Shown: piece after piece, positions 20,117 through 21,056 of the stretch
How the letters are laid out: each line of letters starts with the position of its first letter
Numbering within the stretch: the stretch's first letter is position 1
IMG/VR virus record: IMGVR_UViG_3300028844_000434
Location: 1 to 23,441 of that record
Reading direction: 5' to 3' (one strand)
DNA length: 23,441 nt
Origin: a virus
Notes under the pieces: generated by a model
Told to the model about the DNA's origin: nothing
Databases searched by the model: none
The model's input: the letters and a program-made list of their open reading frames with translations, nothing else
Program-made: the position numbers and the translations under genes

Positions 20117-20326
20117 ATGAGTATTACAGTTCAAGTTAGAAATGGTAATTTAGAACAAGCCATGAGAGTCTTAAAAAAGAAAGTACAAAAAGAAGGTATC
20201 ATAAAAGAATTTAGAGCAAAATCAGTTTTTGAAAAGCCATCTGAAAGAAAGAGACGTAAGAAAAAAGAAGGTATTGCTGCTGCTAAAATTAAGCAGAAAA
20301 AACTATTGAGATTAAGAGGTTACTAG
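20117..20326 (+). CDS. rpsU: Ribosomal protein bS21
   Basis: This 69-residue basic protein is a clear member of the bS21 family of the small ribosomal subunit. It has V-x-V-R-N-G-N-L-E-Q-A-M-R-V-L-K-K-K-V-Q-K-E-G-I, then E-K-P-S-E-R-K-R-R-K-K-K-E and a basic C-terminal helix, at full family length. bS21 sits near the 3' end of 16S rRNA and the anti-Shine-Dalgarno region and helps initiation. A phage copy could replace or compete with the host protein; S21 genes have been reported in pelagiphages. It has the strongest ribosome-binding site in the window (GGAGGT at 20105-20110). It follows a terminator or attenuator and precedes the folded RNA candidate. Confidence 0.93.
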   Translation: MSITVQVRNGNLEQAMRVLKKKVQKEGIIKEFRAKSVFEKPSERKRRKKKEGIAAAKIKQKKLLRLRGY

Positions 20327-20328
20327 AT

Positions 20329-20357
20329 TTTACACTATACGTTGATGTATATATATT
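20329..20357 (+). promoter_or_regulatory. Sigma70-type promoter driving the structured RNA region
   Basis: TTTACA (20329-20334), exactly 17 bp and TATATT (20352-20357). It starts 3 nt after the S21 stop. Transcription should begin near 20363, at the base of the first predicted hairpin rather than near a gene; the next gene starts about 190 nt later. Confidence 0.75.
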
Positions 20358-20360
20358 ATG

Positions 20361-20461
20361 GTCAGGCAGTTCATAAGTCCTTGACGGTGTAAAAGCCCGA
20401 GATTTATCTCGGTGTCGCAAAACGCAGGTTTGCCACTTACTGCGAGAACAAAAAAGTGGCA
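20361..20461 (+). ncRNA. Candidate structured RNA with H-type pseudoknot (small RNA or 5' leader element)
   Basis: Three folded units follow the promoter. Hairpin 1 is GTCAGG with CCTTGAC (20361-20366/20379-20385, one bulged T). Hairpin 2 is CCGAGA-TTTA-TCTCGG (20397-20412). Then comes a pseudoknot: TCGCA (20415-20419) pairs with TGCGA (20441-20445), while TGCCACTT (20431-20438) pairs with AAGTGGCA (20454-20461), and the last connecting loop is A-rich. No plausible gene is encoded. It resembles no riboswitch, tRNA, tmRNA or ribozyme consensus that I can recall. No U-rich terminator ends it, so it may be the leader of the hsp20 transcript. Boundaries are approximate. Confidence 0.55.
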
Positions 20462-20486
20462 CTTGTAATTATTAATATAATGATTA

Positions 20487-20494
20487 TATAAATA
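20487..20494 (+). promoter_or_regulatory. T4-type late promoter TATAAATA before hsp20
   Basis: This is an exact late consensus octamer 60 nt before the hsp20 ATG. A late transcript would skip the pseudoknot region and begin just before a small hairpin (20499-20504 with 20515-20520). Confidence 0.65.
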
Positions 20495-20498
20495 AATG

Positions 20499-20520
20499 TA
20501 GAACGCCATAATGGGTTCTA
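20499..20520 (+). other. Hairpin in the hsp20 leader
   Basis: TAGAAC pairs with GTTCTA, and CCA with TGG inside after one bulged G, leaving a three-base loop. It would stand at the 5' end of a transcript from the late promoter and might stabilise that mRNA. There is no T-tract, so it is not a terminator. Confidence 0.5.
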
Positions 20521-20553
20521 TTTAAATAAACTTGCTTAACAAAAGGAGTTATA

Positions 20554-21003
20554 ATGACTAATAAAGCAATTTCAATTTTCAATCAATTAAGACCGTTATC
20601 AGTAGGGTATGATGATGTATTTGACCATTTTGAGTCAATGTTTAATCACCAATACGATTCGATTAACGTACCTAATTACCCACCTTACAATATTGTAAAG
20701 ACTGGTAAGTACACTTATGATATACAAGTAGCACTTGCTGGTTATGGTAAAAAAGACGTTGATGTATCTTTTGAGAATAATGTATTAACAATCAAATCTA
20801 TTAAAGATAAAGACGAGGAAGAGGTTGAAGATAACGAGGGTGTACTTCATAAAGGTATCGCCAAAAGAATGTTCACAAAGTCTTTTACAATCGCTGAAGA
20901 TGTAGAAATCAAAGGTGCAGAGTTAAAAGATGGTCTTTTAAATGTGACTATGGAAAAAGTAATACCAGAACACAAAAAAGCTAGAACAATAGAGATTAAA
21001 TAA
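20554..21003 (+). CDS. hsp20: Small heat-shock protein Hsp20 (IbpA-like)
   Basis: This 149-residue alpha-crystallin family chaperone binds unfolding proteins without ATP. The N-terminal S-I-F-N-Q-L-R-P-L-S-V-G-Y-D-D-V-F resembles IbpA. The crystallin domain runs from about 45 to 140 (Y-D-I-Q-V-A-L-A-G-Y, L-T-I-K, G-I-A-K-R-M-F-T-K-S-F-T-I, L-K-D-G-L-L-N-V-T) and the C-terminal I-E-I gives the usual I-x-I anchor. Hsp20 genes are common in marine T4-like phages, where they are thought to assist capsid assembly. It has an AAGGAG site and can be made from a late promoter at 20487 or from the upstream early-type promoter through the folded leader. Confidence 0.95.
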   Translation: MTNKAISIFNQLRPLSVGYDDVFDHFESMFNHQYDSINVPNYPPYNIVKTGKYTYDIQVALAGYGKKDVDVSFENNVLTIKSIKDKDEEEVEDNEGVLHKGIAKRMFTKSFTIAEDVEIKGAELKDGLLNVTMEKVIPEHKKARTIEIK

Positions 21004-21013
21004 TCTTAAACGA

Positions 21014-21046
21014 GAAAGCGCTGAGACTTGACATCTTGGCGCTTTC
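21014..21046 (+). terminator. Hairpin after hsp20 that encloses the next promoter's -35 box
   Basis: GAAAGCGC (21014-21021) pairs perfectly with GCGCTTTC (21039-21046). The 17-base loop contains TTGACA of the following promoter. There is no proper T-tract, so termination would be weak; it may mark the end of the hsp20 transcript. Confidence 0.5.
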
Positions 21047-21056
21047 CGTGTATTAT
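21028..21056 (+). promoter_or_regulatory. Sigma70-type promoter for the peroxiredoxin gene
   Basis: TTGACA (21028-21033), exactly 17 bp and TATTAT (21051-21056). The leader to the ATG at 21088 is about 25 nt and carries AGGAG. Confidence 0.85.

Follow-up and report, generated by a model that had tools for sequence, protein, structure and literature searches.

The 227-nt gap between rps21 and hsp20 in this SAR11 phage (20327-20553 by direct reading of the window, and of the length originally given for it) is, on comparative grounds, made up of two distinct conserved RNA elements. Element A (20328-20461, about 134 nt) is a pseudoknotted RNA that follows rps21, and element B (20499-20553) is a two-hairpin leader lying directly after the hsp20 promoter, a separate unit from element A. 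The window, by which we mean the whole 23,441-nt stretch analysed, belongs to the pelagimyophage group, and its closest annotated relatives are the Pelagibacter phages Mosig EXVC030M and HTVC008M. Relatives were collected by an S21 protein search, which gave 80 viral loci. In 79 of these hsp20 follows, and the gaps reduce to 60 distinct sequences, the window's own among them. These comparisons established the fold and gene linkage of both elements, and from them we infer what each might do. Our best overall explanation, to which we assign a probability of about 0.55, joins the anatomy of element A with a role for it as a stable, ribosome-directed RNA and with an RNA thermometer in front of hsp20. 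The features are listed in Table 1.

Table 1. Coordinates of the genes, RNA helices and promoter features in and around the rps21-hsp20 gap
Feature	Position	Strand	Evidence and remarks
rps21 (bS21, 69 aa)	20117-20326	+	ORF; relatives annotated 30S ribosomal protein S21; 3' end carries the pseudoknot RNA
P1 5' strand, TTTTACAC	20328-20335	+	Partner 20387-20394; core 99.3% paired (67 sequences), double changes at every core pair
AU-rich conserved bulge between P1 and P2, TATATATA	20348-20355	+	One mismatch from the T4-late box TATAAATA; possible second promoter
P2 hairpin	20361-20385	+	Conserved 12-nt loop CNNYUCRUAAGW (20367-20378); invariant columns in alignment A1; covariation
P1 3' strand, GTGTAAAA	20387-20394	+	Pairs with 20328-20335; covariation
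P3 hairpin, CCGAG-ATTTAT-CTCGG	20397-20412	+	Six strand-pair variants, all paired (anchored rows)
UGUCGC 3' of P3	20413-20418	+	Near-invariant (alignment A1)
Pseudoknot stem S1 5' strand, CGCAG	20423-20427	+	Partner 20440-20444; nine strand-pair variants
Pseudoknot stem S2 5' strand, TGCCACTT	20431-20438	+	Eight variants; 7-bp core 100% paired
Pseudoknot stem S1 3' strand, CTGCG	20440-20444	+	Anchored pair count with 20423-20427
Pseudoknot third loop, A-rich	20445-20453	+	Sequence; A-richness kept in relatives
Pseudoknot stem S2 3' strand, AAGTGGCA	20454-20461	+	3' end of the conserved RNA; covariation
Putative hsp20 promoter, TTGTAA-N16-TATATAAATA	20463-20494	+	Late box TATAAATA at 20487-20494
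ROSE-like hairpin I, TAGAACGCCATAATGGGTTCTA, bulged G	20499-20520	+	57 distinct variants; match to Rfam ROSE_3
ROSE-like hairpin II, anti-SD AACUUGCUU / SD AAGGAGUU, bulged G	20529-20550	+	U(U/C)GCU before GGAG in relatives
hsp20 (149 aa)	20554-21003	+	ORF; relatives annotated small heat shock protein; gene of the ROSE-like leader

Fold and gene linkage of element A

Element A is built from a helix, P1, that encloses the P2 hairpin and is followed by the P3 hairpin, a near-invariant GUCGC and an H-type pseudoknot. Folding the gap as a single sequence gave no significant signal (z = -1.47, with 15 of 200 shuffles folding equally well), so the fold was examined in relatives. In the R1 alignment of 67 distinct rows, which leans towards the structure because it was fitted to it, 90.2% of element A cells were paired, compared with 70.9 ± 0.6% after shuffling and 35-48% when slid. 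None of 500 shuffles reached the observed pairing. Compensated double changes numbered 338 cells against 100 in shuffled alignments, and compensatory changes with G-U intermediates were found in P1, P2 and S2. The anchored pair count, whose anchors are conserved sequence and which is less dependent on the structure, agreed with the count from the R1 alignment. In the anchored rows, P1 occurred as TTTTACAC/GTGTAAAA, TTTTGCGT/ACGCAAAA and TTTTACGC/GCGTAAAA, and S1 as CGCAG/CTGCG, CGGAG/CTCCG, CGCTG/CAGCG, CGAAG/CTTCG and TGCAG/CTGCA. S2 varied likewise (GCCACTT/AAGTGGC, GCTACTT/AAGTAGC, GGCACTT/AAGTGCC, GGCAGTT/AACTGCC, GGTAGTT/AACTACC). Support for P3 was weaker in the covariance model alignment because the length of its loop varies.

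The original prediction had placed two hairpins and an H-type pseudoknot in the gap and had proposed to test whether related phages keep the stems. All helices passed that test once the register of S1 had been corrected. The pseudoknot is real, with two interleaved stems and compensatory change in both; the 8-bp stem with its A-rich last loop and the hairpin with the TTTA loop (P3) were confirmed. The 5-bp stem TCGCA/TGCGA was in the wrong register, and only 5 of 39 relatives have it in full. The first hairpin exists as P2, while the 8-bp P1 helix around it had been overlooked. That interleaved stems of this kind are unlikely by chance could not be argued from one sequence, at a z-score of about -1.5, but follows from the covariation. 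The insignificant fold of the single sequence would also suit an AT-rich gap that folds by chance, or an inverted repeat acting at the DNA level; the compensatory changes and the shuffling result refute such an origin, and we give it practically no credence.

Of 81 distinct regions, 80 have element A immediately 3' of the end of rps21, and the P2 motif is found 18-102 nt past the stop codon in 79 of the 81. Of the two others, L152 carries a P2 motif that differs by one base, and HTVC008M has a reduced RNA, shifted to the far side of a small gene. Six distinct regions have hsp20 1.1-1.6 kb off, and in some regions a different gene lies downstream; element A remains with rps21 in all of these. 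A covariance model of element A (R1) recovered 69 of 69 rps21-type loci, distant and long forms included, with one significant copy per phage record. R1 found no copy in three cyanophage records (P-SSM3, Syn33, S-CREM1) or in pelagiphage HTVC115P. S21 genes from other phage lineages (Kolga, Melnitz and Deifobo) also had no such RNA next to them, and S21 function in general can therefore do without it. A pattern search of bacterial genomes returned 41 scattered matches, about the chance expectation estimated for 257 Gb, none of them titled SAR11. Taken together, the sequence comparisons make the anatomy of element A and its linkage to rps21 nearly certain, and show an evolutionarily constrained RNA so far confined to the pelagimyophage lineage.

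The size of the RNA varies widely. Long forms with extra conserved segments, which can exceed 400 nt, were found in seven loci (L023, L034, L036, L042, L045, L065 and L066) and in Mosig; by eye, the inserted segments look like tandem pseudoknots. Recurrent segments are UUGGYCUUCGUAGC..GGGUGAGRCCUACC and GGCANUUGCGCC..CUUAAGCUGCG (L023, L034, L036, L065, L066 and L081). The gaps measure 377-542 nt in L023, L034, L036, L065 and L066, and the stretch in Mosig (L081) is 1033-1400. Two hypothetical genes of about 39 codons each, Mosig_00015 and Mosig_00014 (L081 1099-1218 and 1231-1347), lie inside the long RNA; both ORF calls are probably spurious. The reduced version in HTVC008M (L082 2420-2510) comprises two hairpins with YUCGUAAAU loops and then a small pseudoknot, behind another gene. 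A further hairpin module of about 58 nt, CTTATAGATATTCACTAGG..CCTAGTGAATTTCTATAAG, occurs 3' of the last pseudoknot in L030, L061, L076, L078, L021, L024 and L037 and in 54 contigs (L270-L323). Its 38-nt core is identical across otherwise divergent phages, and the module stays 3' of the pseudoknot even where the next gene is not hsp20.

Promoters and the hsp20 leader

The late promoter proposed at 20487 has its box, TATAAATA, on the coding strand upstream of hsp20; the -35 of this putative promoter had been overlooked. The combination TTGNNA-N16-TATATAAATA is present in the aligned relatives and in HTVC008M. Exact TATAAATA occurs three times in the window, always on the + strand and upstream of genes: two sites precede the capsid-module genes 3477 and 4186, and the third precedes hsp20. 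This number is not above chance (mean of 5.1 in shuffles) and it is the placement that is telling. In many relatives (L002, L006, L016, L022, L065 and L066) the hsp20 promoter lies within an imperfect inverted repeat, AAGTGCGACAGAATT..AATTCTATAAATCGTACTT, which is perhaps a phage operator. Downstream of hsp20, a terminator-like hairpin (GAAAGCGC..GCGCTTTC, 21014-21056 of the window) overlaps a consensus promoter of the next gene, TTGACA-17-TATTAT.

The sigma-70 promoter originally read at the start of the gap (TTTACA-17-TATATT) did not stand. Its "-35" (20329-20334) belongs to the 5' strand of P1 and covaries with the partner strand; TTTACA is not a conserved -35 because it changes together with that partner (TTTTACAC/GTGTAAAA, TTTTGCGT/ACGCAAAA). 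A late-type box lies nearby: TATAAATA with at most one mismatch is found upstream of P2 in 58 of 60 distinct gaps and exactly in 15, and the window's copy in the P1-P2 bulge, TATATATA, is possibly a late-type promoter. A late start there would yield an RNA without P1, whilst read-through from rps21 would yield one with P1. Since P1 covaries, the read-through form probably matters.

hsp20 does have a putative switch-type leader of its own; it occupies element B, which the original prediction had passed over. This 5' UTR of a small heat shock gene holds at least two hairpins with the Shine-Dalgarno sequence in the last. At a relaxed threshold (281 bases searched), Rfam matched ROSE_3 (RF02523) to 20497-20559 with 30.5 bits and E = 1.1e-4; as this is below the gathering cut-off of 43, we call the leader ROSE-like and do not file it as RF02523. 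Hairpin I together with a U(U/C)GCU..GGAG hairpin II with bulged G was found in 138 parsed phage hsp20 leaders, Deifobo having a UUGCG variant. The carriers are pelagiphages including HTVC115P, cyanophages of many genera, a methylophage and the Pseudomonas jumbo phage Deifobo; S-TIM5 is a clear exception. In Deifobo (L269 1577-3108), S21 and hsp20 are about 0.9 kb apart, and the UUGCG leader is present without a pseudoknot RNA.

Across the 138 parsed leaders hairpin I had 57 variants and paired in 98.5% of cells (71% when shuffled); the former figure is somewhat favourable because the parser takes the best-pairing candidate. In 40 pelagiphage leaders aligned by sequence, hairpin I was paired in 97.4% and hairpin II in 83.0%. 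These data point to covariation in hairpin I, with weaker support for hairpin II. Run on 21 phage loci of this wider set, with cyanophages, HTVC115P and Deifobo, a model trained on pelagiphage leaders only (R2) recovered in 15 of them a leader that ends at the start codon of hsp20 (E <= 0.02). The hsp20 leader was its best whole-genome hit in Syn33, S-CREM1, Melnitz and Deifobo, all outside the training set, and in the training phages Mosig and HTVC008M; R2 had no hit in the P-SSM3 or S-CAM1 genomes.

Its resemblance to the ROSE class makes it probable that the leader is an RNA thermometer. At low temperature UUGCU would pair with the Shine-Dalgarno sequence around a bulged G; hairpin II would open on warming or in a heat-shock-like state and allow Hsp20 to be made, mainly late in infection. 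In the energy model, hairpin II alone had a Shine-Dalgarno accessibility of 0.13 at 15 °C, compared with 0.38 in shuffled controls. With the full leader and hsp20 start, a nearest-neighbour model gave a weak response, from 0.44 at 4 °C to 0.52 at 37 °C. Such calculations are not decisive because standard models miss the non-canonical pairs of ROSE elements. The weak predicted melting and the ROSE_3 score under the cut-off would fit a stable 5' hairpin followed by an ordinary Shine-Dalgarno sequence, with no thermometer; the U(U/C)GCU motif with bulged G facing the Shine-Dalgarno sequence throughout the parsed leaders, and the hiding of that sequence by hairpin II alone, make this rather unlikely.

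Possible roles of element A

Element A would be co-transcribed with rps21 and possibly also made from the TATATATA box in the bulge. Its pseudoknotted end would shield it from 3' exonucleases. The stable RNA, with its exposed conserved loops UUCRUAAGU and GUCGC, may then act on or with ribosomes bearing phage S21. We favour a stable ribosome-acting RNA because of the tie to rps21, the conserved loops left exposed and the growth of element A to more than 400 nt, yet a role in trans or directed at the ribosome is put forward only tentatively. E. coli ribosomes with the viral bS21 of HTVC008M had about 5% activity, for which the authors suggested that extra virus- or host-encoded factors may be required or that the phage protein is unsuited to E. 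coli ribosomes (PMC6375957). Against a ribosomal role, HTVC008M, from which the assayed bS21 came, has just the displaced, reduced RNA, S21 genes of other phage lineages lack element A, and a constant place after one gene would suit a role in cis equally well. In the most specific form of the proposal, element A is an RNA cofactor of specialised ribosomes that is made along with phage S21, binds S21-bearing 30S subunits and steers them to phage mRNAs. We consider this improbable; if true, element A would be the missing factor to which the inactivity of E. coli ribosomes carrying phage S21 points.

The original prediction had left three roles open. A 3' element of the S21 mRNA and a phage small RNA are both supported by the way the RNA hugs the rps21 stop codon. 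A purely cis-acting rps21 3'-UTR, which would block 3'-5' exonucleases, separate the downstream unit and raise the yield of S21, is nearly as likely as a ribosome-directed role. The RNA starts almost at the stop codon in nearly all regions, terminates in a stable pseudoknot or long hairpin and persists when the next gene changes. Its conserved single-stranded loops and large modular expansions, however, go beyond the needs of a plain stabiliser and support a further role, and no intrinsic terminator was detected at element A in the window. The strict pairing with rps21 could also mark a site to which phage S21 itself binds, for autoregulation or assembly, and many ribosomal proteins regulate their own mRNA. 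Such sites usually lie 5' of the gene, however, and other phage S21 genes have no such RNA, so that we regard this as unlikely. The third suggestion, a riboswitch-like leader of hsp20, fits the position of element A upstream of hsp20 in most loci but is contradicted by the genomic context. The RNA keeps to rps21 where hsp20 is displaced, replaced or absent, a promoter and a ROSE-like leader belonging to hsp20 lie between element A and that gene, and cyanophage hsp20 genes occur without element A; we hold this role to be very improbable. A stable RNA acting on or with phage-S21 ribosomes remains the reading that we prefer.

Comparison with known RNAs

No match to element A, the window or the long relatives was found among the 4227 Rfam families at gathering and relaxed thresholds, the sole relaxed hit below E = 1 being ROSE_3, outside element A. 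The original view that the pseudoknot RNA belongs to no known family thus holds. ARAGORN found no tRNA or tmRNA in the window or in the gaps of the long-form relatives; its only match in long-form loci was a tRNA upstream of rps21 in HTVC008M. A programmed frameshift element was rejected, as the structure is wholly 3' of the rps21 stop codon. The topology S1-L1-S2-L2-S1'-L3-S2' with an A-rich third loop is common to element A, the SAM-II, SAM-V and preQ1 riboswitches and viral RNA pseudoknots. Element A differs from these riboswitch families in lacking any family match and in sitting after a gene instead of before it. GOLLD and ROOL are phage-associated, modular, pseudoknotted non-coding RNAs, traits that they have in common with element A. 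Unlike these large ornate RNAs (PMC12286853), element A is much smaller, linked to rps21 and without an Rfam match. The literature searched, which left many subscription papers outside its reach, described no pelagiphage non-coding RNA. As no described family matches it, element A represents a new RNA family in a widespread marine phage group; its tie to a phage ribosomal protein makes it a concrete candidate for a missing factor in phage translation control.

The word new refers to the element A family, the leader alone being a fresh instance of a known RNA class. For element B the step from sequence to predicted function rests on a well-studied class, whereas that for element A does not. Phage RNA thermometers have been described in lambda cIII, in SPbeta blyA and in the sigma70-gene leader of a Caudoviricetes phage; the blyA and sigma70 leaders are of the fourU type and none is described as ROSE-like or as controlling hsp20 (PMC11182007). 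The hsp20 leader would share with them its predicted nature as a temperature-sensing leader in a phage. In the literature searched, again with many subscription papers outside it, no paper on a phage ROSE element, a cyanophage thermometer or a cyanophage or pelagiphage hsp20 leader was found, and as far as that search shows these would be the first phage ROSE-type thermometers. Since ROSE-like leaders precede hsp20 in both cyanophages and pelagiphages, a temperature reporter could directly test why T4-like marine phages have this gene. The closest parallel is Pseudomonas ibpA, whose short ROSE-like leaders of 61-62 nt with two hairpins confer thermoregulation (Krajewski 2013, PMC3669281). The phage leader differs in being phage-borne, in its late-type promoter, in its AU-rich hairpin II and in scoring below the curated cut-off. 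In common with ibpA (RF02523, PMC3669281), it is the leader of a small heat shock gene with two hairpins and has U(U/C)GCU imperfectly paired to the Shine-Dalgarno sequence in hairpin II, and its hairpin I also aligns to the ROSE_3 model with a GCC..GGGUC core.
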